A stretch of DNA of 64,000 nucleotides, taken from positions 186,001 to 250,000 of the forward strand of contig JAQGEQ010000351.1 in the NCBI GenBank assembly GCA_034620365.1, written 5' to 3'. Made by a program: the position numbers and the translations under genes. Numbering within the stretch: position 1 is the stretch's first letter; each line of letters begins with the position of its first letter. Below the pieces are notes generated by a model that saw only the letters and a list, made by a program, of their open reading frames with translations, did no database searches and was not told where the DNA came from. Below, in pieces: positions 4,842-34,200 of the stretch. The stretch is from Pegea sp. RAD2-039 (taxonomy: Eukaryota > Chordata > Thaliacea > Salpida > Salpidae).

Positions 4842-7800
4842 ATGAGTTATAATCAAATTAAACTGGAAAATAAAATTCTTCAATTTGAGTTCAACTTTTC
4901 ACAAGTTCAGTTCAATAAAACTGGCAAATATTACCTGCGTCTTTCAATCCACAATCATCATCGTGAAGATTTGATTCCGGAAGTAATCAATTTCCAATCA
5001 TATCAGAGACACTAAAATGACCGTTTTTAGATTCTTCTTGAAAAGAACAACTCACGACGCCGAGATGCTTACAGTGACGTCATCACTGACGTAGCTACTT
5101 GGGATGGTACCAATCAGTCCGTGTCATTTGGTCAGAACACTCTCAAGTACACTCTACCTAAAGGTAAATATCAGTGACGTCATCACTACATGGGTGACTT
5201 CAGCATTCCAACTGGTTTTAGGTTTTTGTAAAAATGACAACAATTATGACGTCAATTTGACTATCGAAGCGTTTGCGCTTGAATCTGCTGGAAGAAAATT
5301 CGATGAACCAAAAATTGTTGGTGAGGCAAAGTTTGCAATTTACCCCAGAACGGATGCGCCCCGCGCGAATCTCCTTGTTGAGTGAGTTGTGACGTCATTT
5401 TTCAGAGTTTTTTAATTTAAATCAAATGAAAAAAATGTTATTTTGGGTTTTAAGTAATTTTTAAATAAAATAAAAAAACCTCCCCGTCGTGGAATCGAAT
5501 CCCGGTCTCTCGTGTGACAGGCGGGGATACTCACCACTATACTAACGAGGACTATGAGTTCAGAATTTAAAGCTTTTATTTATTTCATAGTTTTGAGAAA
5601 TTCCTCTTAGCAACAAACAAATTTATTTTCGAAAGTTATTTTATTTATAAATGATTGAAAATTTTCGAATCCGTTTCAACTTTTTCCAGTCTTTAAAAAA
5701 ACAAAAAAAATATTTTTATTCGATTGTTGACAATAAATTAGAAAATATTTTTTCTTTTGAGAATAAAAATCGGATTTCTTTGTTCCTTAGTTTTCATCAT
5801 TCACTTTTATCCTTTGATCTTCATCACCTTATCTTCTTATCTTCATCACTTTATCTTCATCACTTTATCTTCTGATCTTCATCACTTTATCTTCATCACT
5901 TTATCTTCTTATCTTCATCACTTTATCTTCTGATCTTCATCTTCTTATCTTCATCACTTTATCTTCTGATCTTCATCTTCTTATCTTCATCACTTTATCT
6001 TCTGATCTTCATCACCTTATCTTCTGATCTTCATCACCTTATCTTCTGATTTTAGACGAGGGGAAAACTACTATAACTACAATGGGATCCTGACTCTGCT
6101 TCGTCCTTTCACTAAATCTTCCATATCAATGCATTGTGGGCGTGTTTCCTATTCCGTCGCCTTCCGAGAAGATGTTGATGCCACTGATCGCGCTGATGAC
6201 GTCATCACTCAACCAAGTCCGTTACCAGCACGAGTGAGGACCTATCAGGTCCCACAACCAACCAGCCACCCAGTTGACCAATTATCAGGTGAGTAATGAC
6301 GTAAGCACCGAAGTCAGTGACGTCATCGAAGTTTGTTTTTATCGAGTAGATAAAGTCCAGGAAAAGATTGACGAAGCGAAGGTCGCGATAGTTGATAGTT
6401 TTATTGACAGTTTAAAGCAGTCAAGCAACACCAATGTCAGCGCACATCAGTCGAAGCGAAATGATGACGTCGTTAAAGGACTCGTTGATGACGTCATCAA
6501 AGAATCATCAGATGAGTTTTCAATTGGGGATGAGGATTTAGTCAAAGTTAAGGATGATGCTGTCACTGTTGAAAGTTTAGATAGTTCAGAAGGAAGTTCT
6601 GACGTCACCAGCTCATCAGAGTCAAGTAGTGATGACGTTAGCGTTAACTCTAGTCAAAGTGATGACGTCGTCAATTCATCGAAGATAATTGATGACGTCA
6701 CAGTTAAAAAGTCGATTTCGAAAGAGAGTGATAAAAATGATGACGTCATCAGCGAACAGATGATTTTTGACGTCATCAGTGGAACAAGCATCGATAAAGC
6801 AATTGCGAGAGTTTCACAAGCAGCTACTGATGACGTCATCAATCAATTAGCGTTTAACAGCATCGATGAAAATGTAGAAAGTGTCTATAAACCTGATGAC
6901 GTCATCAATTCACCGGGAACAATTTATGACGTCACAGTTAAAAAAGGTGGTGATGAAAGTAATGACGTAACTAATGACGACAAAGTGAAAAAAGTTGCAA
7001 ATATGACGTCATCAAAAGAAATAGACGATTTACGAAAACTGGATAGTGACAATTTAGAATCTTTTAAATCGACGCAGTTCTCTGATTGGCCCGAATTTCT
7101 CGATCTGTTACGACTGATGACGCGTATCCACACACACTCTCAATTATCACTGAACTCTGCTAGTCCAAGATCTCAATATGATCAAATCTCATCTCATTTG
7201 AAGTTTGCTCAACCAACCGCTATTGATTCGTTCCAAAATAGATATAAAAAGATTGAGAAACCAGGTATGACGTCATCAATGTTGACGTCATCAAATATTT
7301 CGTCATCAAATATATCATCATTAGCCAGATCAGCACTGAGACATAATATGTTACAAAAAGCTAGTCAGACTTCAACTGTAATGATGTTACCTCCAACAAT
7401 GTCACCAAAACCTAAACCTGATCTTAAATCGCTGCCGATGACGTCACACAAATCGACTCAAACACCACCACTTATGACGTCATCTAAGATTACTCAATTT
7501 CCAATTCAACTACAATCAAATAAAAAAAAGAGACAAAAAACTTCTCATGATATGACGTCACAAGAGCCTACATCTACTATGACGTCATCAAAACTTTCAC
7601 CTCTAGTTAAGTCACACAAGCGCTCATCTAATGTAGCGTCACAAGAGCCTACATCTACAATGACGTCACACAAGCGTTCATCTAATGTAGCGTCACAAGA
7701 GCCTACATCTACAATGACGTCACACAAGCGCTCATCTAATGTAGCGTCACAAGAGCCTACATCTACAATGACGTCACACAAGCGCTCTCCTCAAGCTCAA

Positions 7801-10800
7801 ATGACGTCACATGATCCCCTAACTTTTGTAAAACTACAAAAACGCCCACCACCTCCTATGACGTCACAAAAACGTCCACATCACATGGCGTCATCAAAGC
7901 GTCCATCGGTGGTTCCTCAAGATCTTTTAGATTATTTGAAATCACAAAAATTGTTGCCTTCAATGACAATTAGAGAGCTCACAAGCTACTTGAAGTGGAA
8001 ATCGCCTTATTTCATGACGTCACAACAACAACATGAGTCACAACAAGCTCCACCGGATATGACGTCACCAACACCAAAGCGGGTTGCTAAGAAAGGGACT
8101 CTATCGCTTGATGGTAACAAAGCACAAAACCGGATAAAGACGTTGACAGAGACGAGTCAATATTTCGACCGATTAGAAGCGAGAAGAAGAAGTTGGCAAG
8201 CGTACTTCTCAGGAGGAGAATCGCGTCGTGAACCGCGTCATAGATCGCGCCCAACTACCTTCAATGATGTCCCTAATGTTTCTAGTTCGACTTCTTTCGA
8301 AGATATGTCGTCATCCGAATTATCGTTAACTCGTGATCCGATCTTGGGAGTTTACAGGGAATCAAATCGAAGACTTCCTCGACGTAACTTCTTCCCACGT
8401 TATCGCGTCCCCGTCAAGATACTAAGTAACCGATGATGTCATCAGTAGTAGTGACGTCATCAACAATGATGTCATCACAGGTTCTCATCGATATCCGCCT
8501 GAATATCTGCATCCATCTGCGTCGATGCAGATGACGTCATCTAAATCGCGTCATCAGATAGTTGCAGTCAGTCAGTGACGTCGAGAAGTTTCTTCGACAA
8601 AATTTCCGCCAAACAATTTTCAAATCTCTTTCCGTTGCAGAATACCGGAAGCGACAACAAGCGCGATTGAAGAAGAATCGCGCCGATGACGTCATCAAGT
8701 CGAAAAAAAGCGTTCAGGTTCAAACTTCAGCTCCAAGCTCAGCGACAAAAAGTAAAACAGAAAAAAGAGGATTTTCAGAGCGGTGATGACGTCATTATGA
8801 GCAGATGATGACGTCAGTGGCACCCGCGATGTGGGTACGTCGATGCTTGATGACGATGAAGATAGATTTCACATTAGCATATCATCACGTGATCATGTTG
8901 TGACGTCATCGCATCAAGTAATCAGCCTCACTCACAAGATAGTGCATGCCGACGATGACGTCATCATCGTTTCGCTTTGACAATCAGTAGAGATTCGCGA
9001 AAAATCGCGTTGTAACGTCATCATCTCTAATTCGATCTTCCTTCTCATCTTCTTCTCGATCTTCTTCATCTCATCAATCGCAAGCTTTCGCGTTGCTGTT
9101 GTGACGTCATCAATTTGCGATTGCATCTTTGATTCGATCTCGAGCAGTTTTGTTTCCATCCAATCTTCGTGAAGCTCCAAACTTGACTGAAATAATAAAT
9201 GACGTCATCACGTTTGCGCACGTGTCTATGACGTCATCACCATTCTATTGACGCTCAGCTTGTTGATGAGGTTTCTATGGCAACGACAGATTTGCTGAAT
9301 CATCAAAGTCAGCTGCTGATTCATCTCAATTTCCAGATCATCGATGATGACGTCAACTTCGCTATTTCCTGACGTCATATACTCGTCACTAAAATCGCGC
9401 TCTAATACCTGTGACGTCATCTTCATTGCAAATGTTGTCATGATGTCATCAGACTTCGCTTACATTTACCAATCGATCTTTCATTCGTTCGTTGTTCAAC
9501 TGACAGCTGTGTGACGTCATGATGACGTTGTTCAGATGACGTAATTGATTAGTGATGACGTCATCACATCGTTTCTCGACCTCTAACATCATTTGTTCTT
9601 TCAAATCTTCTTTATTCTCTTCTTTAACTTCTGAAATCATCTCATCAACCATCTCTTGCATCTGTTTCTAATAAAAATGACGTCATCTTTGCTATTTGCT
9701 GAGTGACGTCATCAAATTTTCAGCAGGTGTCAAAATATTCGCTCACCTGAAAATACTCGCCAACTTTCTTTTCTACTTCATCCAAATTCAACTTTTCCGT
9801 TTTTGACTGAAAAATCGATACAATGACGTCACTAATACGACACATACACTGATGACGTCACTAATACGACACATACACTGATGACGTCACTAATACGACA
9901 CATACACTGATGACATCACTAACACAACATACACTGATGACGTCACTAACACGACATACACTGATGACGTCACTAACACGACACATACACTAATGACGTC
10001 ATCTCTAACCACGTTACTTTGGGTTGATCTTGTTGAAGATCTTGAAGAAGTTGCTGAACTTAAAATCGAAACATATTCTTTTGACATAATTGCTGATGAC
10101 GTTACTAATCAATGACGCCACTGCCTTGCTTAGTAATCGAACATCAAGTAGATCTTAACTTCAACTGAAATTTGTTGAAACTTTTTTTCTTTTAAATTAT
10201 TTATTTGAAAATTTTGAAACTTTTTTTCTTTGCGAAGCTCTTCGACAAAACCATCGACCAACCAGCTGGTTTCTATGACAATCCAACAACCAATCAGCGA
10301 GCAGCTTTGTATAATGGGGCCCAAATAGCCAATCAAACTCCTACCGACTACTATGGTCACCTAGCAACCTTCAACAACAGCAACAGCTACAAACAACGCA
10401 ACAATAAGAAATCACAAATTCTTAACAAAAGCAATAAGAAGAAGCTCGCGTCACAAAACGCCCCAAAACCTCGCGCAGGGGTTGAAGAGTCCCCCAGTGA
10501 ACCTAATTTTAGTCCCATACGTCATGTATCTAAGCCTGGCTTCGAAGACATCTACGTCGTCTTTCACGGAGCAACCAGTCTTCCTTCTTGCTCTGATGGC
10601 TCTGACCCTTCACCTTTTGCCATCTTGTAAGTTATGACGTCATAAAAAGTCGCGTCGTGCTCATCGACAATCTACAGAAAAACTAGTGGACAAGAGCGTA
10701 ACAACGAAACGACTTTATGTACGTCACATACTTCGCGAGAACCAACCCATTCACCTTTGTGGGAGGAAGCCTTTACACTTCAGGTAAAAAGAAATGCCTC

Positions 10801-13800
10801 GAGTGAGGATCGAACTCACGACCTTGAGATTATGAGACTCACGCGCTGCCTACTGCGCTATCGAGGCTGTAATTTAGTTTCAGTTGAAATGAATTTATTG
10901 TAGGTTGCGGATGAAGTTTTTAAGAATGAAGATGTCGTGTTGATTGTTGCTGATGCTATTTCTCGAGATGTCTTAGTGACGTATCGAATCCCGATGCGCT
11001 ATTTCCGCGAGTTTCAAACCTACCATTTAGAACTTGTGCAGGTTTACACAATAACCTTGCTCACCGCCGCACACTTAAATCTTTTTTCAGCCAACACCTC
11101 AAATTCCCAATGGAGTCCGACTTTATGTGACGATTCAACGTAAAATCAGTCATTTGAAGCGACTCAAGGTTCGAATCCATCATCAGCAGCAGCAGATTCA
11201 CGAATCAAATTCTGACTTTTAGTCGTTCGGTTTTTGCGCTCTTGAAGTTTCTCTTCGCGATTTCTATGAAGACCTTCCAGCCCCTGTTGGACCCCTTCTC
11301 GCGGTGGCACGCATCCTGCCCGACTTCCCTGCCTACCAGTTTGTCCCTGGCCCCTTCTCTTGAATCATATGACGTCATCGTGTTGCTTAGAAACGAGAAT
11401 TTGAAGCGGAAACCGTTCAAAGCGGGAATCGAACCTCAAACCATCGACATGAATCATCTAAGCGATCGCGACTTCAGCGCAGATGACGTCATCAACGGGA
11501 AAACCCCTCAGATGAGTTTGTTGAGTAGCGGATCGAGACGTCCGTGTTGGGATCACACATTTCTCTTCGCGCATGATGACGTATCAACGCTCTTCTCTAA
11601 AGATGCTGCTCTTGTCATCGAGCTCTACTCTGCATCATCCGGTTAGTCATCTCATTACGTCACTGATGACGTCATCATCTCGTCGATCACAGCAATTACT
11701 CCGATCACGTGGGCACTCAACAACCCGCTCGGCTATTCTGTTCTCACCCTCAACGAACTACTGCTCAAAGGTGATGACGTCATTGATGTTGTAAGCTTGT
11801 GACGTTAGTATCGCGTGTTGTAGTGTTGATGTCAGAATCAGGAAGACTCGGAGTTCGAGTAGAGAAGCTCCCGTTTCTTCACTCATCGTTTTTTTCGATC
11901 GATGCTGATGACGTCACTTCTGATGAGCTTTCTGCCTCGCACTTGCGTCTCATCATAAGATTGATAAACACGGAAGTAATCACCGATTCTTCATCTTCAA
12001 CTCCTCATCATCATCTCTTACAGCGTCCTGACGCGATGATTGCTTCCGGTGACGTCAGAGACCTTCCGCTTCTGGAATCACTGCTTAGAAACGAGCCGAT
12101 GACGTCATCAGTGACGCCGACACTCCAACAAGTAGCTGAAGAATATTTTCATCACGTCGACACACAAACTCCACCTGTGACGTCATCACCTACTCCCGAG
12201 GCACCTGTGACGTCATCACCTGCTCAACAACCACCAATGACATTGGCACAGACTCCTCAACCGACGATGACGTCATCACCGACGCCACAGTATCCGATAA
12301 TCATCTCATCAACTCCACCAGCTCCGGTCATCATCTCAACATCTCCTTTTATCGGATCTTTTTATCGCGATTCGCGGCGACCCCTGGTGAGTTCCCTTAT
12401 TTGGTCATAAAACGCAAACAGCGTCGTCTAGTGGTCGAAACTTCTTCGTTAGTTGGTCGCTAGCTAATGACGTCATTTGGAGTTGTTTGTTCAGCGATCG
12501 CTTCGATGTTTAATCTGTTGTTAATTCCGTCTCGCGTCGCTACACATTGACAGGGAGCGCCCATCACGCTTTTGTGACGTCATCACATAGGCGAGCGTTT
12601 GTTTGGTTTACGAAGAAGTTCAAGAAAATTGAAAATAGTTTTGAAAATAGAACAGAAAGTTGAGAGGAGAATCAGGTGAAGATGTGATAAAGATCAGATG
12701 AAGATGTGATGAAGATCAGGTCAAGATGTGATAAAGATCAGGTGAAGATGTGATGAAAATCAGATGAAGATTAGATGAAGATGTGATGAAGGTCATGTGA
12801 AGATGTGATAAAGATCAGGTAAAGATTAGATAGAGAAAGATCAGTTTGATAAAGATCAGTTAGATAAAGATCAGTTAGATGAAGATCAGTTAAACAAAGA
12901 TCAGTTAGATGAAGATTAGCTAGACGAAGATCAGCTAGATGAAGATCAGTTAAACAAAGATCAGTTAAACGAAGATCAGTTAGACGAAGATCGGCTAGAT
13001 GAAGATCAGCTAGATAAAGATCAGTTAGACGAAGATCAGCTAGATGAAGATCAGCTAGAAAAGATCAGTTTGATGAAGATCAGTTTGATGAAGATCAGTT
13101 AAACAAAGATCAGCTAGATGAAGATCAGTTAGACGAAGATCAGTTAGACGAAGATCGGCTAGATGAAGATCAGTTAGATGAAGATTAATTCAAACTATTT
13201 TTTTTTTGAAGTTTTTTAATTCTTTAATTGTCAACTTTTTGTAAATGTCAGTTTCATATTATCGGCCGATGTCATCAAAAGTGAGTAAAAAAAAAAGAAA
13301 ACAAAAAAAAAAGGAAATATTTGCAGTTGGTGAAAGACGACGAATTCCCTCCTGATGACGCCATCGAAAACATCCTTCCCGAATACTTGATGACGTCAGA
13401 CGACTTACAACTTCATAATGTCCCAACTAAGTTAGAAGGTTGTCCCTAAGTCGCGCTTTTAATCGCGGTCTTCTCGCTTTCAGCGCCACTATCAACAAAC
13501 AAGCTCGGAAACCGGAAAATTCCGACAAACGCCGAATTCAAGTTATCCTGGATCAGCGGGAGCGAGTAAGATCTGCTTCTTGTTTGCATCCTTGATGACG
13601 TCATCATTTCAGGAACTTGCTCGCTACAAGGACGCAGTGAAACGGATGTCACGTGATATCGTCAATTTGCGTCAAGAAAACCTCAGCCTACGAGTGAGTG
13701 TGCGATGATGACGTCATCGCCTTCTTGATGACGTCATCGATGTTGATTCAGAGCAACAATCAAGTGTTACGTCACGAGAACGAAGATTACGTCACGTATC

Positions 13801-14680
13801 GTAGCAACGTGCAACCGGAAATCAACCCCCTCGATTCTAGTGAACTTGTTCACGAGTTAGGTAAGTGATGACGTCAGCGGGTAGTGATGACGTCATTGTC
13901 GATGTAGAAGCGGCAAATGAGAAGTTGTTGAAGGAATCAGTCGATCTTCAAAAGTACAAATCAAAAGTTCAACATCTTCAAAACCAAGTGATCAAGGTGA
14001 TGACGTCATTTGATGAGATACGATGACGTCATGATGTCATGTGACAGGCGAATGATCGCGAGAAGCAATATTTGAACAAGGAGATGACGAAGAAGCAACT
14101 GGAATCGATGATCGGTGATCTTCAAGAGAGGTTGAAGAAGACACATCGGTTAGAAGAGACAGTTTTGAAACAGGAGAAAGTGATTTTGAAGATGGAGGAT
14201 TTGCTGAAGAAGTCTCAGAAGAAAGAAGATCAGAAGAAAGAAGATCAGGAGAAGAAGATTAAAAACCTAGAGGAAGATTTAAAAAGAGGTGAATTGCTGA
14301 AAAATAATTTCTTATGACGTCATCACTTATATTACGTCATCAGCTACATCGTCATCACCAAGACAACGCCTTTCATCAAACGAAGAAATTCTCGCATCAC
14401 TAACGAAGCAAAACAATCGTTTACATCTCGACTTACGACGCGCAAACGTAAGCAGCCGATGACGTCATCACCATCAAATGATGACGTCATCAACCATCAA
14501 CAGGAAGCAGTCGAGTTAGAGAAGTCGGAATTGTTGGCGAAACTGGAACGAGCTGAAAACCGCGCGACGTCTCTCGAAGAACAGCTGGTGAAGAACGCGA
14601 AAGTTTGGGCGCGCGAGAAGCAAGAGTTGATGGTTCGGCTACAAGAACATCGAAACGGAATTATTCGTAAAAATCAATAA
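4842..14680 (+). CDS. CCDC33: CCDC33-like protein: two C2 domains plus C-terminal coiled coil
   Basis: Exons I can place are 4842-4982, 5031-5163, 5222-5381, 6056-6288, 6350-8425, 8572-8782, one ending at 10626, 10678-10783, 10904-11041, 11091-11168, 11223-11338, 11391-11641, 11693-11770, 11809-12386, 13327-13430, 13484-13565, 13613-13693, 13752-13860, 13908-13996, 14048-14288, 14344-14447 and 14504-14680. Phases agree at every junction except between 8782 and the exon ending at 10626, whose start I could not fix. The first C2-like domain (exons 1-4) contains KFAIYPRTD and YYNYNGILTL. The second C2 begins DIYVVFHGATSLPSC and continues through VLIVADA, YRIPMRYF and YHLELV. The coiled coil has SKVQHLQNQVIKANDREK and RLEETVLKQEKVI, and ends with a LEEQLVKNAKVWAREKQEL segment. 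These agree in order with CCDC33 as I know it from vertebrates, where the gene is associated with testis and cilia. Most introns are 45-60 nt and nearly all carry TGACGTCA. Homology of the C2 and coiled-coil parts is near certain; inclusion of the 6350-8782 exons is less so. Confidence 0.9.
5480..5551 (-). pseudogene. Decayed tRNA-Asp (GTC) inside a CCDC33 intron
   Basis: It is identical to the intact tRNA-Asp at 16506-16577 apart from a few substitutions. These create two mismatches in the T stem (A-C and G-A) and two in the anticodon stem (C-A twice). The anticodon loop CTGTCAC (GTC) is kept. Four stem mismatches make it very likely non-functional. It lies antisense within the 5382-6055 intron of the CCDC33-like gene. 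Confidence 0.85.
5815..6051 (+). repeat. Pyrimidine-rich tandem repeat in a CCDC33 intron
   Basis: An irregular array of the units CTTATCTTCATCACTT and TATCTTCTGATCTTCATC ends just before the 3' splice site at 6055. The strand is almost pure C/T plus A, so the array may extend the polypyrimidine tract. Its units are the reverse complement of those in the 12.66-13.19 kb array of the same gene. Confidence 0.85.
6350..8425 (+). CDS. Giant low-complexity exon of the CCDC33-like gene
   Basis: The frame is open for nearly 2.1 kb. It can be spliced in phase from the exon ending at 6288 (acceptor GAGTAG before 6350) to the exon at 8572 (donor GTAACC at 8426). It encodes about 690 residues rich in Ser, Thr, Asp and Val, predicted disordered, with no domain I recognise. 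The first part (to about 6980) reads the TGACGTCA motif as DDVI; the second part reads it as MTSS. A more ordinary, Arg-rich stretch follows (ETSQYFDRLEARRRSWQAYF and on to RNFFPRYRVP). In the CCDC33 proteins I know, the two C2 domains are not separated by anything this long, so this is a lineage-specific insertion or a separate embedded gene. Confidence 0.6.
7600..7790 (+). repeat. Coding minisatellite, 54-nt unit
   Basis: About three copies of an 18-codon unit, MTSHKRSSNVASQEPTST, start at about 7660, 7714 and 7768, with a partial degenerate copy before them. Copies are nearly identical, so the expansion is recent. The frame is preserved, which supports translation. Each unit carries one TGACGTCA. 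Confidence 0.85.
8932..10087 (-). CDS. Five-exon coiled-coil protein nested antisense in the CCDC33-like gene
   Basis: Reading from the ATG at 10087, exons are 10087-9989, 9806-9747, 9667-9470, 9408-9241 and 9186-8932. All four introns are phase 0 with good GT-AG signals (the first donor is GTATGT), and the total is 780 nt, giving 259 residues. The protein is highly charged, with heptad-like runs such as QEMVDEMISEVKEENKEDL and EMKKIEKKMRRKIELEMM, so it is probably an extended coiled coil. There is no signal peptide or membrane segment. I do not recognise the family. TGACGTCA is found in its introns and in less conserved coding stretches. It lies opposite the gap between the CCDC33 exons ending at 8782 and 10626, so it is most simply an intron-nested gene. 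Exact splice choices at exons 3 and 4 are my best reading. Confidence 0.7.
9820..9988 (-). repeat. 29-nt minisatellite in an intron of the nested gene
   Basis: About six copies of a 29-nt unit (TGATGACGTCACTAATACGA followed by CACATACAC on the + strand) lie inside intron 1 of the antisense coiled-coil gene. Each copy contains the TGACGTCA core; one copy has TGACATCA. Small length differences (CGACACATACAC against CGACATACAC) mark separate copies. Confidence 0.9.
10795..10867 (-). tRNA. tRNA-Met, elongator (anticodon CAT), in a CCDC33 intron
   Basis: The 73-nt cloverleaf has fully paired acceptor arms (GCCTCGA and TCGAGGC), anticodon loop CTCATAA giving CAT, T arm GTGAG-TTCGATC-CTCAC and discriminator A. 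It lies antisense within the 10784-10903 intron of the CCDC33-like gene and fills most of it. The fold is intact, so it is probably functional. Confidence 0.95.
12660..13190 (+). repeat. Purine-rich GAAGATCAG tandem array in a CCDC33 intron
   Basis: An irregular array built on GATGAAGATCAG, AGATGTGATAAAGATCAG and the 15-nt unit GATCAGTTAGATGAA lies in the 12387-13326 intron. The strand is G/A-rich. The array is the reverse complement in character of the 5.8-6.05 kb array; GATGAAGATCAG here can pair with CTGATCTTCATC there. A micro-exon just downstream near 13250-13278 is possible but not supported by phase. Confidence 0.9.
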
Positions 14681-14829
14681 TCGCGCGTTGATGACGTCAT
14701 TAAATGTTTTTCGTGTTATTTGCTATTGTTGATGACGTCACTTAGTCGAAAAGTCAGTGACTTTGAAGAAGCTTTGATGATGACGTAATGTAGTTGAGCC
14801 TATAATGATGATGTGACGTGATGATGACG

Positions 14830-16016
14830 TCACGATTGATGATACGTACGTGAAAGAGGTGATGACGTCATGAAAACTGCTTTGCGTGGTTTGATTTCTT
14901 CGTAAAGATGATTCTCGAAATTTGGAAGTTGATTTTGGGGCGGAAGGTCGTAGATTTGCTCGATAATGACGTCATCATCATCGCTTTCTGAAGTCGAAAA
15001 ACTTTTGAAAGATGTTTGATGTGAGATTTATTTTTACCGAAATCATTTTCAAGAGGCGATGACGTCATAACTGCAGCTGGTGGATCGTGGTAAATGTAAG
15101 ATCGACTGATGGTTGTCATGTCAACGGCTTCGTTGTTGTTGTTGTTGTTAGCAACGTTAGAAAAGCAAAATCTGAAATCAAAATCCAAATTAATAACTGA
15201 AATTTTTTGAAAATTTTTTCGACTTTTTTTTCTTTTTTATCCAAAAAATCGCCAAAATGATAAGAAAAGTCGAAAAAGTTGTCAAAAATACAATTATGAA
15301 AATGTACGGCGAGAATGACATCACATTTGATGACGTCATCACTTCTGTGATAGTGACAATTGAAGATTTAGTAGCAGACGCTACTGATGACGTCATCGCT
15401 GTTGTATTTACATCTGATGACCTTATGGTTGATGACGTGACAACCTCTGAAATCAGAAAAGTTATCAAAAGTGGCGACTTTTTTGGTCGTTTTCACTTTT
15501 AGCGCAGATGAAGTAAGATTTATGATTACAAGGTTTGTTCATCCAACCAGCGGTTGCGTTGGTGAAGACGCGACCGCTCGTGTATGTGACGTCATCACGT
15601 GGATAAAGATAGATGCAGGAAGGATATGCGGTGAGGGCAGGCGATAATCCTACCCAGTTGGTGCCCTCTAGTGTTGATTTATTGTTCCATTTCCATTTGG
15701 AAGAGGAATTCAACTTCCGACCTGAAGTCCAGAACCCCATAAAGAAGGGGAAGCGGATAAAATCTTCTCTATCCACTTTAATCTTTGGAAGTTCATCTTT
15801 TAACGTCTTCTGGATGTGATCCTCATCAATTGAAATCAGATTTCCATCACAGCGTCTCATCGCGTCATCAGCGCTCAATAGCTGCGTGTGAAAGCTAATT
15901 TGTAATCCTGATGACGTCACTTGCCATGTGTCTTGTGATGACGTCATCGCTTGATGGGATTGAATCAGAAATGAAATTGAAAAGAGAGTAGTTAAAAATA
16001 GTATAGATGACGTCAT
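14830..16016 (-). CDS. Single-pass C-type lectin receptor with tyrosine-rich tail
   Basis: Exons are 16016-15497, 15446-15224, 15171-15038 and 14987-14830, with three 50-52-nt introns. All phases agree and total 1035 nt (344 residues). The order is a signal peptide (MTSSILFLTTLFSISFLIQS), one C-type lectin-like domain, a Ser/Thr-rich stalk, one membrane helix (PYIFIIVFLTTFSTFLIILA), a Lys-rich stop-transfer run and a cytoplasmic tail. The lectin fold is supported by the four canonical cysteines (MRRCDGN, YPSCIYL, NKPCNHK, YFICAK) and the FFMGFWTSG strand. No clear EPN or QPD calcium/sugar motif is seen, so ligand binding may not be classical. The tail carries YDLP and YEEI, the latter the classic Src-family SH2 site when phosphorylated. 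The start codon and stop codon each lie in a TGACGTCA copy. It converges on the CCDC33-like gene, about 150 bases apart. Confidence 0.85.
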
Positions 16017-16505
16017 TGAAGTTTCTATGAGATAACTTCATATAAAATTCAAATTTAAATATAGCTAGATGTGAAAAAAAAACAGATTCTTAAAAGTTAA
16101 GCTTCAAAAAAATAATCTGTTTCATTCTCATCTGAAACGACAAAACTGAAAGAAAAACCATTTTAGACGTTTAAATCTCGTTAAGACTTTATTGACTCGT
16201 AAATAAATTGAATTGAAGACAACTTTTCAAATAACAACTTTCATTTAAAAAAAAACATTTTTTAGCTGATTTTCTGCTGACGTCATCTCATGAGTAATCA
16301 CATCACTAACGACACACTAAAAGCTGGAATTTATTTTTTTAAAATAAAACTTTTATTCAAAGCAACTAAAAAATAATTCGATTTTTACTTATTTGGTAGA
16401 CAAATAAATAAAGTTTAAATTGAAGCAGTTAATGAAATAGTATATTTTTTCAATATTCTGAAAAGAATCGACTCTGAGATGTACAAAGTTGAAAAATAAA
16501 AAATC
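16017..16505. other. Upstream region of the lectin gene
   Basis: This stretch holds one TGACGTCA near 16278 and no gene. It presumably contains the lectin promoter, but I cannot mark an element. Confidence 0.4.
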
Positions 16506-16577
16506 CTCCCCGTCGGGGAATCGAACCCCGGTCTCCCGCGTGACAGGCGGGGATACTCACCACTATACTAACGAGGA
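16506..16577 (-). tRNA. tRNA-Asp (anticodon GTC)
   Basis: The 72-nt cloverleaf has acceptor arms TCCTCGT and ACGGGGA, anticodon stem CCCGC/GCGGG with loop CTGTCAC (GTC), T arm CGGGG-TTCGATT-CCCCG and discriminator G. All stems pair, with one T-G wobble in the acceptor. It is the intact counterpart of the decayed copy at 5480-5551. Confidence 0.96.
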
Positions 16578-17558
16578 CAACGAGGTTTTACTAAAATTTT
16601 TAATTACTATTATAATTTTCAAAATTTTTTCTTTGCATCAACAATTTTTTTTATACTTTCAAAAATTGGTGAAAACTTTTAAAATTTGACCAAGCTAAAT
16701 TTGCTTTTAAATATAATGTATTAAAATAAGTTCAAAGTTTCTGAAAAATACAAACTCTTTGTATAAATATAATTTTTCAAATACAGAAGTTCTTAAATGT
16801 TGAAATTATTTTTATTAAGGTTAAAAGATCAAATATTAACTATATTTTGTTGAAAATGTTTTAAAATTAGATTAATTAATTCATATGTATATGTTTAGAA
16901 ATCTTTAGCTCACCAAAGTTCTACAGTTAATTTATTTTATGTTACATTATAAGTCTTATGAAATCATGGTCTTTTTATTTAAACAAAAATTATAACCAAA
17001 ACTAACAAAAAATGTAAAAATAATTTGATGTAAATTTTAATAAATTGAATTTTAACAGTTTATATTTGATAAAGTTACTAAATAGGGTTTTTCCCAAATG
17101 TTTGGTGGACTTCAAGAACTCACCAATAAAAATTTGATTAAAAGTTTTATGTTTGCTCATAAATGTTGATTGATCTCAAGATTGGATTGTTCAGTAAATA
17201 TTTTCATTGTTTGAGCTAATTTGTTTTATAAAAAGTCAGTAATTTGCTGTGTTCGTTATTTGATAAAAACATTTCACTAAATATTTCCAGTTTAAAAACA
17301 ATTTAAGAAAAATTCAATTGTTTATTTTCACTTTAGATTTTAAACATAAATTAATTGAAATTTCTATTATTTTTAATTTTGATTTTTAAATTAGAAGAAA
17401 ATGATGAAAGTTGATAATTGAAAAAGTTTTCATGAAATAATTTTTTACTCAATAATCAAACAAAAAATTTCCTTTTTTGAAACAAATTTTTTTGAATTTT
17501 TTCTTTAAGCACTAAAGCAAAAAAATAAAAATAATTTTAGAAAAATTGATTTTCTGTG
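16578..17558. other. AT-rich spacer without motif or gene
   Basis: This kilobase between two motif-rich blocks holds no TGACGTCA that I can see and no supported coding sequence. Confidence 0.5.
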
Positions 17559-19006
17559 ATGTTGGAATCCTTCTTCCGATCTCAAGGGAAAGTCTTCCTG
17601 CTCCTTCTTCCTTTTATCATCTCATGTCTTGTTGATGTTGGAATCTCTTATTTCACTTACGTCATCTTACTAGTGACGTCATTGGTGGTCTTCCAGAAGC
17701 TAAGTGTTGAAGTGATACGTCATCACATCCGTCCAGTATGTATCTGATGCCCTTTAGTGGATGATTTTCAACTATTTTATTTGTAGAACTCACCACTAGG
17801 TGGCCTGATCTTTGTAAGTCTTTATTCATCGGCTTCTGCGGTTCTCATCTTGATGACGTCATTGACCAAATCTCATTGGTTAGTTGACGTTATTGTTTGT
17901 TTTCAACTAAAACTGAATTCAGAGTTTTGGGTTGGATTTTTATCAGTCAGTTACTAATATTGTTATTACTTCAAAAGTGAAAATTCAGCTTCTATTTTGG
18001 AAATCCATTTTAATTTTATTTTTGTGGGGTCCGAGATAACTTCCTGCATCCAACCTCTTTGAGCAAAAAGATTTGAAATCTGATTTGGAATTTGGTTTTT
18101 TTGAAAAATATTTTGAAGAAAAAACAGAAAAATATTTTTTTCATCTTTTTAGGATTTTTCATTTTCTTGACTTCTTCACTGATACAAACAGCGAATGTTT
18201 TTGGAGAGTGGTGACGTCACTGGTCGCTTTCGATTACGTCATCAAATACGTCACACTTGCCATCAAATCTTTTTTAGTTTTATTTTGTCGAACTTGCATC
18301 AAAGATTTCTATTTAGTAAGATGATGACGTCATTTATTGCATACAACAAATTTTTATCTCTAGGGTTCTCTTTTCTACGTCATCGAAATGACGTCACAAC
18401 TTTTACGCTGTATTTTACCTGTACCTCAATGGGGGAAGTTTTTTATCTTTACTTCGAGCCTTCGACCTTTTTTTCGGGTTTTATGCACTGCTGGTTACGC
18501 CATAGCGAAAGTAGGTGATGTCATAAGGACAATTACTGTTTTATGATGACGTCATATCCACACACAGGTCTATTTTCTTTTTGAGAAGATCAAATTGATG
18601 CGAAATTCATCTAGTGGCTTTAAATCGGTATTCTTTTTTCAACCGCCAGTTGGCGCTAACACTCTGTTTTCAGATATTTCATGAAACGATTGAATCGAGG
18701 AAAAATCCCCCAATTTTGATTTGCAGTCTCTGCAACAAACGTATTCTGCGTCGCGCTGTTATCCCTTGTGACGTCAGTGCAGCTAGTCATCAGTTACAAC
18801 TTTAATATGTGTTATTACAGGAAAATCATGAAGCCTGTATGAGGTGCTCCTTAATATGGTTTGATCGATTCCCAAAATGTCCTTTTTGTAATATGGAAGA
18901 TGGAAGTTTCCAGGTCTTTGAAAAAAGCAAAAATTCTGCAAAAATTGTGGAGATTGAAAGTTACTGGCGCACTGGAAAGTCAGATTCTATCATTCAATTC
19001 TTCTGA
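17559..19006 (+). CDS. Multipass membrane protein with C-terminal RING finger (probable E3 ligase)
   Basis: The ATG at 17559 starts a hydrophobic N-terminus (VFLLLLPFIISCLVDVGISY). Several short exons follow, rich in membrane-type sequence. Clear ones include 18364-18510 (GSLFYVIEMTSQLLRCILPV and on to LCTAGYAIAK), 18568-18617, an exon from about 18674 to the donor near 18774, and 18822-19006. The C-terminus holds a C3HC4-type RING: CSLC, eleven residues, CDENHEACMRC, ten residues, CPFC. The two halves are joined across a 47-nt intron containing TGACGTCA. Membrane-anchored RING proteins are usually ubiquitin ligases of the ER or endosomes, of the general RNF139/RNF145/RNFT kind, but I cannot assign a family. 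Exon borders between 17650 and 18350 are uncertain. The stop lies in a decayed motif (TTC TGA TGATGTCAC). Confidence 0.7.
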
Positions 19007-19583
19007 TGATGTCACTTTTAATTTTATAATATTTATTTTGATGACGTCATTCTTTTGATTTTATAATAAAAAATCTAAAAGAAATCTTGTCAGAAACTTA
19101 TTTGACCACTTAGAAGAGTGAACCCCAAAAAAGATCTTTTCTCAGGTTTTCTCTTAGAACTGAAAATGTTCAAATTATTTTTTTCATCTTCATTTACTGC
19201 AGCAACTTTTTAACTGGATTTTATTCAGTTAGTTTTTCATCGATAAATTAGCGGGAAGGAAACTGTTAAAGTTTTTTTATAGTAAGTATGTTTTGATAGA
19301 TTAGTTACAACTAAATAACATGATGCGCAACTTTTTATTGATAGTTAGCACCCTTAAACAAACATCGATAAAAAGTTTCGACAAATTAACAGAAAGTTAA
19401 ATATTAAAAGTTGCAAAGTTAGTTGTTGAAGATAGTTTTATGAAAGTGTCTTTTTAGTTTTTGATTCACAGAAACCAGCTGTCAATTGATTAGTTTATCT
19501 TAGTTTCCTCATCAAGTTCATTTCAAAATGAGATAAACTTTTTTCTAGATTTTTATTGGTGTAAGATCACTTAAGTGATAATT
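19007..19583. other. Spacer between the RING and UNC-93-like genes
   Basis: One TGACGTCA lies just after the RING stop near 19039. The rest is AT-rich with no gene seen; it presumably contains the UNC-93-like promoter. Confidence 0.45.
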
Positions 19584-21388
19584 ATGCAAAAAACTGAACG
19601 AAATATCCGGAGGGAATGTTTGAAGTTTCTTAGTTTGTTAACTTTTGGTTTCGTTCTCAATTATTCTGCATATAACGCATTAGAAGGTTTGAAAATATCG
19701 ACTTGTGACGTCACATGAAACGCGATTTCATAATATTTGTGTAACGCTTATTGCTTCTAAATACTTCATATCGACATCTCGATCTGAGCACGTGATTTGA
19801 TGACGTCATCAACGCTTTTAATGAATTTGTAGGATTACAGAGTAGCGTCAATCCAACTATTGGTTTGATTTCATTGAGTCTTATTTATGGACTTTACGGG
19901 ATTTCATCAACTCTACTCCCGTCAATTGTCAGCAAATATTCCCGATCGAGTCAAACGCTCGCTATATCGCAAGTTTGTTACACGTTCTACACGATCGGTA
20001 AGCTCGCTTCTGATTGGCTGTAATTTCTTTCAAAATATTTTTCAGCAAATTTCTACCCGACCTTTTGGACCCTTATACCGTCTGCTATAGCACTTGGGGT
20101 CAGTGCTGGGCCATTTTGGTCAACCGCCAGAACGTACGTTGCACAATTAGCAGAAATCGATTCAAAACTTTCAGGAAAAGCTGAAAGTGAAAAAAGTGGA
20201 AAATTTTTCGGAATTTTTTACTCGTTTCAAGTTTGTAACTTTTTTGTCAAAAACCGATGACGTCATTGATGACGTCAGCGCAGATTTCACAAGTGGTCGG
20301 GAACTTGTTGGTATGGCTGACCACAGCTTTGATGTCATTAAACAAAAAAGATGATGACGTCATTACAACACCTGATACCAATCTCACGTCACTAAGCAAC
20401 TCAACAAATATGATGACGTCTTCAAACGCGACTCCATGCGGAATTTACTATACAAAAGAAGTGACGTCAGCAGCGCGAGAAGTCAACCATCTAGCTTTAG
20501 GACTCTTACTGCTTCTTCAAGTCTTTGCGATCTTCATCTTCCTGAAGATTCCTGACATCATCTCGATCCGTGGTGACGTCATCACACGGGAGCCGTTGAC
20601 GTCACGTGCCAAGACCTTAGTGGATAAAAACGGCAATACACTTTTACCAGTAGAAAAGCAGAGTGACGTCATCAGCGAGGTGAAGACGTCATCAACCAGT
20701 GACAATTTATCACTGGTACGCGCGATGTTTCGGCTTTTGTCACGTGACAAAACCGCTCTTCTTCTATTGGCTCTTTCTTTTCACTGCGGATTTCTTCATT
20801 GCACCGTCATCGGTGACGTTACAAAGTCGTGGGTTACGTGCACACACGGTCAGTGGTTTTGAGGCTTCTGGCGTCATGATGACATCATCACTTTCAACAG
20901 GTGTTGCTTATGTGCCATCGATGATGATCTGTTACGGTCTAGTGACCACACTGACGTGTCTCTTCGCGGGATCGCTCTTTCGATGGATCACGATCACCAA
21001 ACTCGTTTACATCACTCTCATCTTCGAGACTCTACTCTTTATCGGATTGTTACTATGGCAACCGACATCTTCAAGTTCGTCACTCGTCGCTTATGGAATC
21101 ATTTTTTCATCTTTTGGAATCACAAATGGAATGAATCGAACTTTGATCGCCGACATCTTCTCTCTCCTCTTCACTGATTCTGTATCAGCCGGGATGGCGT
21201 TACTAGGGGCAACAGAAGCCGCGTCATCATCGCTTCTTTTTGGTCTCGGTGACGTCACTGCTCCCATATTCAAGATTCTTTTTACTGTGACTTCATCGGT
21301 GGTTGGAGGAGCAACTTTCAAGATTGCGTGGAAGATGAGAGACAGTGAAACGCGTTTTCGACAAGTGACGTCATCAAATGAGAAGTGA
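19584..21388 (+). CDS. UNC-93-like major facilitator family membrane protein
   Basis: Exons are 19584-19686, 19833-19997, 20046-20230, 20284-20848 and 20901-21388. Phases agree and give 501 residues. Family-typical signatures are NALEG/LQSSVN after the first helix, LPSIVSKYSRS, TIANFYPTFWTLIPSAIALG, the SAGPFWSTARTYVAQLA segment, GKFFGIFYSFQISQVVGNL and, in the second half, MMICYGLVTTLTCLFAGSLF. UNC-93 proteins are twelve-helix membrane proteins of the MFS fold; the founding member modulates a muscle potassium channel and UNC93B1 traffics Toll-like receptors. Insertions relative to the family sit in an extracellular loop (with several N-x-S/T sites) and in the central cytoplasmic loop, and these are where TGACGTCA is read as MTSS or DVI. 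The stop is followed at once by a motif copy. Confidence 0.87.
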
Positions 21389-22233
21389 TGACGTCAGTGT
21401 TTGATTATTTCAATAAAAATATTTATGTTCATTTTACCCTTGTATATATGTGACGTCATCAACGCTTTAATTCGTTTATTTTGCATTTTTCTGACAATTA
21501 AACTTCAATTTGAAGTTGTTTCAATTTTCAACACAAATCAACATCTGTAAGGATCATAACAACATCTGTAAAGATCAAATGAAAAGAGATGAAAAGAGAA
21601 CAAACTCTACCCACAGGCATCTAAGGTCAAAGTACTTAAAAAATATTTTTCAAAATATTTTGTTTTTTGAAAGGAAAAAACATGAAAATTAATTTTCAAT
21701 TTGATAAACAATTACATCATTTTTGAGTAAGCAAATTTATTTGAAAATTGATCAATATTTAATAACAAAGTTACCCACAATCAAGTTATTAAATTGTATT
21801 TAATTGAAATATAATCTTTGATGAGAAGTAAAGATTTTTTGAAGACATCTTTTGAGTTCATTTTTAAAGAATTTTTAAGATGGTTTAGTAACTAACCAAT
21901 GTATCTTAAGGCCAATTTTTTTTTTATAGAAACTAATTAAATAGTGAGCTTTCAATCAGATTATTTAAAAGATAAATTTTGAATTTATAATGAGAATCAG
22001 ATTTAAAAAAAATGTACAACGTCATAATATCCAACGAGAAAAAATATATTCGATCTTTTAAAAAGCTTTTGAAAATCGTTTAATCATTCAATAGCAAATT
22101 AAGTTATTTTAATGATTGACCTTACACAAAATAAAAAGAGAAAACAAGTTATTATTATTCAACACTTGTCAAAACACCTAAAAATGTTACTTATATCACG
22201 GCTTAAATATAAATATTTTAAAGTTTGTCAACG
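21389..22233. other. 3' flank and AT-rich spacer
   Basis: An AATAAA lies about 20 bases after the UNC-93-like stop, and the last dense-block TGACGTCA is near 21450. Beyond that the motif disappears and no gene is seen. Confidence 0.5.
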
Positions 22234-22306
22234 GCCTCTATAGCGCAGTAGGCAGCGCGTGAGTCTCATAATCTCAAGGTCGTGAGTTCGATCCTCACTC
22301 GAGGCA
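22234..22306 (+). tRNA. tRNA-Met, elongator (anticodon CAT)
   Basis: It differs from the copy at 10795-10867 by one substitution in the acceptor stem (GCCTCTA instead of GCCTCGA), giving a T-C mismatch at acceptor pair 6. The anticodon CAT, D arm and T arm are unchanged. Probably still expressed, but the mismatch could weaken it. Confidence 0.92.
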
Positions 22307-23062
22307 TACATTTTTCAAAAATAAACAAAATTTCAAGTAAATCAAAATTGATTTTCTCTTCAACTATTTGGTTATTACTTTAAAAAATTTTTATGACATT
22401 TCAAAATAAATGAAACTATCGCAACAAATATTCATATTTTGTTCCAAGTTACAAACTATTCGATCTGAAATTCCTAAGTTGATACAAGAGCGCCACCCAT
22501 CAATGCATAGATGTGTTACTAACTTATTCTAAGTAGATCTTAGAAGTTGGCATCTTTTGGAAGGGAGAACTGAAAAGTTCAGCTTCTATTGAAACTATTT
22601 TATCAATTTCACCACCAAATAAAAAACTTCCAAATCTGAGAATTTTTAAAGAAAATAAGATTACAAAAATAAGTTTTCGTTTAAAAACAATTGATAAAGT
22701 TCTAAATCTAAAAATATATATTATCCATTATTATATTTATTTGATAAAAGTTGAAATTAAGTTTAAATATTTTACAAAATTTTATGATAAAAGCAATTTA
22801 TGAAATTTATAGTTGCAAAAAAATTCATAATTTGTGAAAATTTAGCAAAATGAACCTTATGAAGATATTTAACTCTGAAAGAATATTCACTACGTAAGAA
22901 TGATAGGTTACATTTTTATATGTATGGGAAATATTAATTAAAAGTAATATAAAGATGTTTAATAATTGAATTAAAACTATTTCAATCACAAATTAGTAGA
23001 AACTTTGATTTTTACCAAGATATTCTAGTTATAAAATATCTACTTTCATCAAAAGAATGTTT
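22307..23062. other. AT-rich spacer before the LINE
   Basis: No gene, RNA or repeat recognised. Confidence 0.5.
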
Positions 23063-23595
23063 GTTTTATTTATTTATTACAATAAATGCGAAGGAGGGTA
23101 CCTGAAAAGAGCACCTCTCGCTAACACACATTCTCACAAATAACATCTATTTAGTCAAAAATATAGAAAGCAAAAATGTAACACATGGTATTTCGATATC
23201 ACTCCAAGCATATAACAGTGAACAATTACATAGAATGTTATTAATATGAAAAAGGAAAAAATTACAGTTTAGAAATGACAATGTTGGCAATGTTATAACG
23301 ATTCAACTTCTTTTTGAACAATGCGAGCGACTCCGACATGACAATGTCTGATGGAAGCTGGTTCCATGTACTTATTGTGCGGTATGAGAAAAAATTCAAT
23401 CTGAATAATGTACCAGGTGATATGGGCTTATTAAGATGTAATGTGTGTCGTCTGAGCTAATATAACTTGAAGGAAGGACTAATGGAAAAGAAATAATCAA
23501 ACTGAAGTCAACTAGATTGTGGATAATTTTAGAAATAAGAATTAAGTCGTATCTAATCCGTCGAATTTCCAAAGTATCTAAATTGAAGAGGCTTC

Positions 23596-26041: not shown

Positions 26042-26357
26042 AAGAGCTTTAAATTGAAAAAAATTGTTAAATAATCGACGGTGCGTTGAAGAACATACCT
26101 AATGTGATAGAAGAATTGTCTTTTTGATGCTTGTGAGATTTGATGATGGGCTTCTGTAAATTGATATCTTGGGTATTAATAATTGTGTCCGAAGAGAGTT
26201 TGAAAAAAGAAGATGTGGGTCCAGTGGTTATTTTCCACTTCCGTTTTTTGAAAAAAACTTGACAATTCTCAAGGCCCATGGTGGACCTCGAACTTTATAT
26301 TTGAAATCAGTTGGTTGTTCCTTCTGATTTCGGTTATACGCTTCTTTTAGAAGACGC

Positions 26358-31158: not shown

Positions 31159-31202
31159 ATTTTAGTTAGTTTTGTTGAGTGTTTGATTTAAAAAGGATCA
31201 AA

Positions 31203-34200
31203 ATGCCCTCAGTGGCTCGAACTGATGCTATGCGGGGATTGGCTGTTTTTATATCAGATATAAGAAATTGTAAGTTGTGTCTCCATATTTGAACTACATA
31301 TCAATTTTGTCAATTATATTTGTAGTTTTATAAAGTTTTTAATCACAGTCATATTTATCAGTTTATTTTTTAAGGTAAAAGTAAAGAAGCAGAAAGTAGA
31401 AGAATAAATAAGGAATTGGCAAATATAAGATCCAAATTCAAAGGTAGTTTCAAAAGCTAATCTAAATAATTTATTTTTTACTTTTATTTTTTATGATTAA
31501 GTTTGGAATTATTTTCAATATTGATTTTTATTTGTTTCTGGTAACTTCCATGTTCTAATGATCTAATTCTACTTAAACTGATTTACATAAACACAAATTT
31601 TGATTCATTTAGGAGATAAAACCCTTGATGGATACAGTAAAAAGAAGTATGTGTGCAAGTTACTGTTTATATTTCTACTTGGTCATGACATCGACTTCGG
31701 GCATATGGAAGCCGTGAATCTACTAAGCTCAAATCGATACACTGAGAAACAGATTGTAAGAAGGAAACAAACCAACAATTTCCACAAACAGAAATATTCG
31801 TATTTTCAGGGTTACCTTTTTATATCAGTGTTGGTGAATGCACGTTCAGATTTAATGAACTTAATCGTGCAAAACATGAAGAACGATATCTCATCCAGCA
31901 AACCTGTCCACGTCAACCTTGCCCTACATTGCATCGCTAATATTGGCTCTATGGAAATGGCTGAAGCTTTTGGACCAGAAGTTCCCAAATTAATCGTGTC
32001 TCCGTCAGTAGATCAAATTATCGATGCTTCTCACAACTAAAGTATTTATTTGCAGCCAGGCAAGCGAATCTGTGAAGCAAAGCGCAGCTCTCTGCCTCTT
32101 AAGACTCTTCAGGACTTCTAAAGAGTCGATGACATATGCTGATTGGGCTTCTCGAGTGATCCATCTACTAAATGACCATCATATGGTCGATTTGTGACCA
32201 TCTGACCACTGACAACTCATCTGTAGACTTTTTAGGGGGTGGTAACTGCTGCTTCTAGCCTCATACATGCATTAGCTCAACATAGTCCAGCTGAGTACAA
32301 AGGATGTGTCTCTCTCGCAGTTTCGAGACTTAGTCGGATTGTTACAGCAGCTTACACAGACCTTCAGGTTCATCTCACATCTCATGATTTATCAAATATT
32401 TATGATGATTTCTATAGGATTACAGCTACTACTTTGTACCAGCGCCTTGGTTAAGTGTCAAGTTGCTTCGGCTCCTTCAGTGTTATCCTGTTCCAGAAGA
32501 ACCGGCAGTTCGCGGCAGGCTTGTTGAATGTTTAGAAACTATTTTGAACAAATGTCAGGAACCACCAAAGTCGAAAAAAGTTCAACATTCGAACGCGAAG
32601 AACGCGGTTTTGTTCGAAGCCATCAACCTCATCATCCACATCGATAGGTAATCCCATCATCTCCTCTTCAATCTTCTTCACGTTCATCTTTCAGTGAACC
32701 AAATCTTCTCGTGAGAGCTTGTAACCAACTTGGTCAGTTCTTACAACATCGAGAAACTAACTTGAGATACTTGGCACTGGAGAGTATGTGCTTGCTTGCT
32801 AATTCGGAGTTTTCTGCTGAAGCAGTAAAGAAGCATCGAGAGACTGTCATCAACGCTTTAAAGGTTCATATTTCTCTAAATTTTCTTCATTTCTTAGAAA
32901 CTTATTTTCCTGCTAAATCGTTCTTCTCGTTTCAGTCACGTGACTTCGACAATTTTCTAATTGCCATTCATTATTTTAATTGTTTCGAAAATTGATTTTA
33001 TTTTTAGACTGAGAGAGATGTAAGCGTTCGTCAGCGCGCTGTCGACTTGCTGTACGCGATGTGTGATAAAAGTAATGCTGAAGAAATCGTAGCAGAGATG
33101 TTGTCTTATCTCAAGACTGCAGATTATGCAATTCGTGAAGAAATGGTAAAAAATTCGACTTTTATCGAAATATTTTCACGATTGTTGATTACAAATCAAA
33201 TAAGTCAGATATTGATTTTTTGTAACTAATTATTTCCTCCAAAACCATTCGCTTGTTTTCAACCACCAATAAACCAGCTTCAAATCCTTACAGGTTTTGA
33301 AAGTTGCAATTTTATCCGAGAAATATGCTTCAGACTACACATGGTATGTAGACACGATCCTTCAGTTGATCCGAGTTGCTGGGGATTATGTGTCCGAAGA
33401 AGTCTGGCACAGAGTCATTCAAATAGTTATAAATCGAGATGATGCACAAGGATATGCTGCTAAGACTGTATTTGAGAACCTACAAGCTCCTGCTTGTCAT
33501 GAAAATATGGTGAAAGTGGGAGGGTACATCCTCGGCGAGTTTGGTAACTTGATAGCTGGTGACAGTAGATCTTCGCCTCTTATTCAATTCAACCTCCTTC
33601 ATTCGAAATTTCATTTGTGCAACGTTTCAACGCGCGCTCTTCTACTATCCACCTATATCAAGTTCATCAACCTGTTTCCTGAAATCAAAACTACTGTTCA
33701 GGTTTCTATCTCTTTAACTTTCAAAACTTATTCAATTTGCATTTGTTGCTGTTGATAGAATGTTTTGAACAATGACAACCAGTTGAGAAATGCTGATGTT
33801 GAGTTACAACAGAGAGCTCTTGAATATTCCCAACTAAGTTCCATCACTTCACAAGATGTACTTGCAACTGTCCTGGAAGAGATGCCTCCTTTTCCAGAGA
33901 GAGAGTCTTCGATATTAGCGAAGTTGAAGAAGAAGAAGCCATCAGCCACACAAGTTGGTTTCAATTTCAATTTTTAGAACAACTTTGTCAATCGCTACTT
34001 TCTATTCCGGAAGTATAGGAAGCTCATTAAAACCACTCGCTACTTCTCGCTATTTACTTTTCATGTTTAAAAAGTCGACAAAATCTTTGAAAGTTTTAAC
34101 AAAGTAATCAGCAAAAGTGGTTTCGAACAGTCAGTAAAACCCCTGCTTTAGTAAAACATTTATCCAAATTAGCTGACAACCACCATCATCATCATCTTCA

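Follow-up and report, generated by a model that had tools for sequence, protein, structure and literature searches.

Highly iterated palindromes are known from cyanobacteria, where their cause is itself debated, and to meet one in an animal would be surprising. A second described system is the CRE, whose canonical form is the palindromic octamer TGACGTCA; in the available part of one report, the CREs of Ciona have no bias towards transcription starts (PMC1796609). In fission yeast, Atf1-Pcr1 reads the M26 site, which may be located within an open reading frame (available part of PMC9775316). According to the available part of a study of Ciona, the genes that are methylated and those that are not form fixed sets, and sperm agrees with muscle in the methylated ones (PMC3827831). 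Here we describe an animal genome in which the CRE octamer itself is present in gross excess.

The window, the whole stretch of DNA analysed, is 64 kb long (G000:C83:186001-250000) and belongs to an assembly of 105.7 Mb in 387 contigs. We took part of an AP-2 complex alpha subunit gene in the window (31179..33960, + strand) to place the host. With a query assembled from approximate exons, the best named matches were Ciona intestinalis and C. savignyi (up to 91%), followed by Styela clava and Clavelina lepadiformis (88%), and three further proteins labelled jgi, one of them also lgn, matched at 99, 95 and 93%. These matches indicate that the host is a tunicate and not a nematode, as its gene content might have suggested; a COX1 family search yielded no match. 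Tunicates are close relatives of vertebrates. The AP-2 alpha gene holds no octamer and served as the contrast gene.

We counted 114 copies of TGACGTCA in the window. An island at 5040..21460 (no strand assigned) contains 109 of them, where a first-order Markov model expects about 0.5; three copies lie to its left and two to its right. The first-pass annotation, made from the letters of the window, had put the octamer at more than a hundred copies against an expectation below one, as the counts bear out. It had also called the island saturated, a description that suits the octamer with its graded flanks and does not suit the full 14-mer form TGATGACGTCATCA, which occurs 11 times in the window, all within the island. 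The excess extends to the whole assembly, with 27,792 copies of the octamer compared with 969 of the reversed control word in the 105.7 Mb, and 1,972 copies of the 14-mer compared with 0 for its control. In the sampled loci the octamer was found 440 times for 3.2 expected, while the next palindrome reached 33 for 3.2. The palindromic octamer thus stands far above genome-wide expectation, as highly iterated palindromes do. A second palindrome, TCACGTGA, of E-box type, is also in excess genome-wide (4,614, and 237 for its reversed word) and is enriched both within and beyond the CRE islands of the sampled loci (14 vs 1.3 and 16 vs 1.6).

Within the window, the octamer occupies several kinds of sequence. 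An open frame of 732 codons (6238..8433, + strand, stop to stop), for which Pfam gave no match, holds 23 octamers, 14 read as xTS and 9 as DV; inside it lies a tandem repeat (7551..7787, + strand) with 5 octamers. A 29-bp minisatellite (9823..10001, + strand) carries 6 and has diverged matches on several other contigs, and a C-type lectin domain frame (15468..16037, - strand) carries 4. The UNC-93-like transporter gene (19584..21388, + strand, five-exon model) has 7 octamers in coding sequence, or 4.6 per kb, and 4 in two of its four introns, or 13.4 per kb. Copies therefore lie in open frames, in the introns of the UNC-93-like gene, between frames and beside genes on both strands, and the placement in introns, gaps and coding sequence of several genes that had been read by eye is upheld. 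Three AT-rich gaps in or beside the island (5400-6180, 16300-17600 and 21480-23500) hold zero octamers; the one within it (16300..17600, no strand) has a G+C of 0.23.

Other elements were seen in the same region. Adjoining the island at 23596-26882 (- strand) are interrupted pieces of a non-LTR-type endonuclease and reverse transcriptase, named by eye and without octamers, and a similar piece occurs at 3688-4278 of another locus, L052. The island's tRNA-Met gene (10795-10867, - strand) matches again in the window at 22234-22306 and has 17 near-identical matches clustered on another contig (G000:C284:308344-360961). Minisatellites of the AAGATCAG and ATCTTCATCA type lie at 12657-13185 and 5801-6047; in the sampled loci AAGATCAG occurs 176 times, an enrichment over the third-order expectation of 16.1.

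We next consider how the copies are distributed. An unselected sample of 15 stretches of 2.5 kb yielded 6 copies in 37.5 kb, which indicates that TGACGTCA is clustered. Ten 10-kb loci on contig C1 (L015-L024) held 6 to 45 octamers each, and ten loci flanking the window on either side (L005-L014) held 0 to 51; since the former were picked for holding copies or clusters and the latter adjoin the window, pooled densities are biased upward (pooled counts exclude L001-L004). Some genes are filled with octamers, in their exons and short introns and in the narrow gaps as well, and others are spared. Of the 440 sampled copies, 119 lie in 47 long open frames, and density was 2.8 per kb in long frames vs 1.2 per kb outside them in these loci, which were partly chosen for clusters. 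The octamer is thus found in coding and non-coding sequence alike, as in highly iterated palindromes. Its density rises with G+C (rho 0.68), and exon G+C is alike in the AP-2 alpha gene (0.42, no octamer), the 732-codon frame (0.41), the UNC-93-like gene (0.43) and TAF2 (0.47).

The TAF2 gene shows how copies can arise. One open frame of 1,174 codons (L008:633-4154) matches TFIID subunit 2 entries of the PDB, which we take to be human, at 1,040 bits; it contains 27 octamers and has no second copy in the assembly. The alignment runs to query residue 918 and covers 17 of the 27 octamers, of which 15 lie on ungapped positions and 2 touch a gap, so that the octamers were built in place by point substitution. 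Residues touched by the motif were identical to the PDB chain at 17 of 62 positions (4 gapped), compared with 412 of 841 elsewhere (5 gapped). The octamers thus settled mostly in less constrained places and altered the TAF2 protein.

These alignments bear on whether the palindrome is carried by a mobile or tandem-repeat element, an explanation that we regard as scarcely credible. In its favour, tandem arrays account for 40 of the 440 copies sampled, and the CRE-bearing minisatellite is matched on several contigs. However, the other 400 lie outside arrays, no consensus extends past about 3 bp of flank, the TAF2 octamers sit on ungapped positions, and the island is otherwise near single-copy. 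The island stretch 6238-11800 (5,563 bp) had no second copy in the assembly, and its matches elsewhere were the tRNA, pieces of the CRE-bearing minisatellite and short stretches only, by a search that leaves out very common words and scores the top candidates only. The shared flanks, arrays and unit insertion expected of a tandem or mobile repeat do not characterise the octamer. The first-pass annotation had itself named what would overturn it, a motif rare elsewhere and derived here from one local tandem repeat; the genome-wide count (27,792 vs 969) and the share of copies in arrays (40 of 440) are the opposite. Its suggestion of spread by gene conversion or replication survives in part: the mostly ungapped TAF2 alignment speaks against copying or insertion of units, and it is compatible with a conversion bias that works on point mutations. 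One sampled locus (L029, G000:C15:300001-302500) is a long array of TACGATTG-bearing units with 118 copies of the word and a CpG o/e of 3.19, and a 639-codon open frame reads through it.

The same coding copies weigh on a second explanation, that these are ordinary regulatory CREs in the promoters and enhancers of cAMP- or stress-responsive genes of a compact genome. The octamer is the canonical CRE (available part of PMC1796609), and a CREB-like bZIP is present in the genome. The 27 copies along the TAF2 frame and the 119 in 47 long open frames are not promoters, however, and in the sampled, partly chosen loci long frames are denser (2.8 per kb) than the sequence outside them (1.2). Ordinary CREs thus seem quite unlikely to account for the pattern. 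The judgement that it lies nearer to HIP1 than to promoter CREs stands on the genome-wide excess, the sharpness of the word and its run along TAF2; the wider claim of a eukaryotic, genome-wide word of coding and non-coding sequence is likewise borne out by the genome counts, the TAF2 frame and the codon counts that follow.

To separate DNA from peptide, codon choice is informative. By reading frame, the octamer encodes xTS or DV or, in the third, a stop. In the 47 long open frames the two open readings are used 56 and 63 times, the third being closed by construction, and this near-even use indicates that no peptide is favoured. MTS is spelled ACG-TCA in 34 of 41 cases and other xTS, in which x is any residue but M, V or L, in 9 of 83; DV is spelled GAC-GTC in 66 of 87 cases after a codon ending in T, compared with 1 of 15 after other codons. 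In the 732-codon frame every MTS (13 of 13) is ATGACGTCA, and Thr outside the motif uses ACG in 4 of 40 cases. The same residues are thus spelled with the octamer only where the preceding base permits it, which indicates that synonymous codons complete the octamer. The pattern looks to be kept at the level of DNA and not of the peptide.

We also compared the octamer-encoded residues with relatives, which are known as proteins only. In P0125 and P0126, two nearly identical relatives of the 732-codon frame, 24 of 28 motif residues are identical (with 4 gapped in P0125), compared with 263 of 449 and 262 of 449 residues elsewhere. Against other T, S, D and V residues the difference gave P = 0.026 for each, two values that are not independent. 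In P0001 all 14 motif residues are identical, compared with 401 of 446 elsewhere, and the test against other T, S, D and V residues was not significant (P = 0.22). These comparisons support, and do not prove, that relatives retain the residues that the octamer encodes. Copies that are old and yet sharp in sequence imply upkeep.

Flanks and near-misses show what is being kept. At position -1 of 880 half-sites we found A 578, G 231, C 47 and T 24 times, with mainly G and then T further out, so that the flanks are symmetrical and graded (R, then G, then T). Genome-wide, 23,214 of 27,792 copies have the form RTGACGTCAY, compared with 228 of 969 for the control. Graded symmetrical flanks and this share resemble the site of a dimeric protein, and with its bZIP-like flanks the octamer corresponds in sequence to a CRE. 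Among 417 pairs of neighbouring octamers none is closer than 12 bp. At 19-24 bp there were 28 pairs vs 13.1 in 300 jittered controls; 9 of them come from one array-bearing locus (L021), leaving 19 of 373 pairs without it, and since the jitter allows overlaps that real copies cannot have, the spacing test is weak and a preference for 19-24 bp is suggestive only.

Genome-wide, words within one mismatch of the octamer number 64,917, and 28,668 for the control. The two words made by CpG transition, TGATGTCA and TGACATCA, account for 11,070 vs 2,673, and they are the sole near-misses clearly above control. When these and the exact word are removed, 26,055 words remain over 22 neighbours, about 1,184 each, compared with an average of about 1,154 for the control's 24; many of the 22 hold a CpG and so have a lower background, which may mask a small excess. 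In 66 one-kb island windows, 369 exact octamers stood against 1.3 expected. There TGATGTCA occurred 21 and TGACATCA 19 times, with about 2 expected, and the variants other than CpG decay were led by TTACGTCA (21) and TGACGTAA (15), with about 1 expected of each; the remaining 20 one-mismatch words occurred 0 to 7 times each. The ratio of exact octamers to the mean neighbour other than CpG-decay words in islands, 369 to about 4.3, would give, assuming equilibrium, an estimated scaled preference of about ln 86, or 4 to 5, which is weak per site. The AP-1 site TGASTCA was not enriched in island windows (9 vs 13.0 expected), which speaks against readers of the JUN/FOS type.

Taken together, these observations suggest, at slightly less than an even chance, that the octamer is a bZIP site of the CREB/ATF type, maintained along gene bodies as a mark on the DNA. 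RTGACGTCAY, in its fullest form TGATGACGTCATCA, would be a putative high-affinity site for a CREB/ATF-type bZIP dimer, and the tunicate lineage would hold such sites by a weak, pervasive preference acting on the DNA itself. The mark would cover the bodies of a subset of genes, with their exons, short introns and narrow gaps, and its role would probably be architectural: unlike single promoter elements, the copies would keep the gene bodies of these clusters open or free of methylation. The genome-wide count (27,792 vs 969), the codon choice, the substitutions in TAF2, the graded flanks, the lead of TTACGTCA and TGACGTAA and the 12-bp minimum spacing all point this way, as do the CREB-like bZIP exon in the genome (L041, named by eye) and the lack of transcription-start bias of Ciona CREs in the available part of PMC1796609. 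Among the candidates put forward from the letters, a bZIP-bound mark fits best, by the RTGACGTCAY share and the tolerated variants TTACGTCA and TGACGTAA; its reader is itself a prediction from the site.

Several results weaken the bZIP mark. The link to CpG is weak (rho 0.38), TpG/CpA is flat, P0001 gave P = 0.22, and no ATF2/ATF7-like bZIP was recognised among the bZIP exons inspected, which number 12 as a lower bound. Across the genome most weaker sites are nearly absent, more sharply so than selection for protein binding would lead one to expect, which counts against the mark. The 14-mer TGATGACGTCATCA we take to be the BATF3/JDP2/ATF7-type motif of motif libraries. The 12-mer GATGACGTCATC appears in 14 papers; a 14-mer holding it is labelled an ATF4 motif in the available part of one of them, PMC9930257. 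The same ATF6-like bZIP peptide, recognised by eye, was seen at two places (L050, C21:1488095-1488289; L051, C37:190668-190862), which hints either at a haplotype left uncollapsed or at recent duplication.

The main rival to the bZIP mark is an upkeep without function, as proposed for HIP1 (available part of PMC4390886), in which a mismatch-repair, methylation-linked or gene-conversion bias would restore near-misses and leave the excess as a by-product. The sharpness of the word is what such a bias would produce, its 22 neighbours averaging about 1,184 and the control's 24 about 1,154, and so is its presence in coding and non-coding sequence alike. However, the variants tolerated in islands form a graded series, with the transversions TTACGTCA and TGACGTAA among them, which resembles the tolerance of binding; the copies cluster in some genes only; and no motif-specific enzyme was found, the two scanned C5-methylase frames being DNMT1-like. 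We consider this explanation unlikely, and still the strongest of the rivals.

Eleven matches to the C5-methylase family (PF00145) were found, and the two that were scanned carry BAH and C5-methylase domains, as DNMT1 does; the encoded DNMT1-like enzymes make CpG methylation plausible. As a candidate for a motif-specific methylase these two frames were rejected, since they are built like DNMT1 and their loci hold no octamer. C5-methylase open frames of 603-873 codons lie in L052 (G000:C57:818501-828000), in L053 (G000:C32:35501-39500) and at other PF00145 places; two copies at C57 have opposite orientation, and in L053 the C32 frame has diverged near the catalytic PCQ motif.

Octamer density correlated with CpG o/e at rho 0.58 with the octamer masked, a value that is partly circular because motif half-sites also hold CpG; in contexts outside the motif (L029 excluded) rho was 0.38. 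There CpG o/e rises from 0.86 to 1.17 and GpC does not, a mild contrast. Six CpG-rich windows have no copy and seven CpG-poor windows have at least 4, and TpG/CpA fails to mirror CpG (rho 0.11, P = 0.17). The proposed methylation-linked site is thus only weakly favoured by the correlation outside motif contexts, to which these windows are exceptions, and an unmethylated-compartment model is a possibility rather than a result.

On passive retention, copies would last where germline CpG is unmethylated and elsewhere decay to TGATGTCA or TGACATCA. Among near-misses, these decay words alone clearly exceed the control (11,070 vs 2,673), the ratio of decayed to exact words is 0.27 at a CpG o/e of 0.5-0.7 and 0.09 at 1.3 or more, DNMT1-like genes are present, and Ciona has fixed methylated and unmethylated gene sets (available part of PMC3827831). 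Yet retention cannot create an excess of 369 vs 1.3 expected in island windows, and the CpG correlation falls from 0.58 to 0.38 outside motif contexts. As a cause it is improbable; it is more likely a co-factor.

On a last alternative, the copies would resemble M26, the ATGACGT of fission yeast, and, as CREs bound by a bZIP protein, would set meiotic recombination. Sites that initiate recombination are expected to be lost through conversion, which counts against this reading, as does the similar G+C of exons with and without copies. The core is the same, and M26 lies inside an ORF and is read by Atf1-Pcr1, but canonical TGACGTCA in fission-yeast ade6 was unbound and did not raise recombination, according to the available part of PMC9775316. 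We consider it very improbable. The readings as promoter CREs, as hotspots like M26, as passively retained copies or as mobile elements all explain less than the bZIP mark or a HIP1-like bias.

A literature search for the 14-mer TGATGACGTCATCA found no paper, and one on the octamer, tunicates, palindromes, CREB and CpG methylation recognised no report of the pattern, which does not prove it unpublished. That the word of this animal case is a well-studied transcription-factor site would make its cause testable through occupancy, methylation and transmission. Such a case would also show that a DNA word of 8 bp, where it is preferred, can change the protein that a core gene encodes, and this would bear on how codon use and protein divergence in tunicates are read.

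Compared with known systems, the mosaic gene-body methylation of Ciona (available part of PMC3827831) offers two gene sets that could match the CpG-rich and CpG-poor genes here, and fission-yeast M26 (available part of PMC9775316) offers a CRE-like core with a bZIP reader that can sit in an ORF. The present case is unlike the first in its mild CpG contrast and unlike the second in a genome loaded with the site. With the CRE as described in the available part of PMC1796609 it shares the identical octamer, the CpG-decay form TGATGTCA as main near-miss and, for Ciona, the lack of promoter bias; it differs in its tens of thousands of copies, arrayed through coding frames and introns. With the cyanobacterial palindromes typified by HIP1 (available part of PMC4390886) it shares a palindromic octamer, gross excess and presence in coding and non-coding sequence, and it differs in its animal genome, in a word already known as a bZIP site and flanked by R and Y, in strong clustering in some genes, and in that no cognate methyltransferase was found in the two frames scanned. 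We therefore propose, with somewhat less confidence than an even chance would warrant, an animal-evolved highly iterated palindrome, a gene-body CREB/ATF-type mark that would alter even TAF2 residues and define a chromatin or germline compartment. It is closest in kind to the CRE, whose sequence it shares, and to the highly iterated palindromes, with which it agrees in numerical features.
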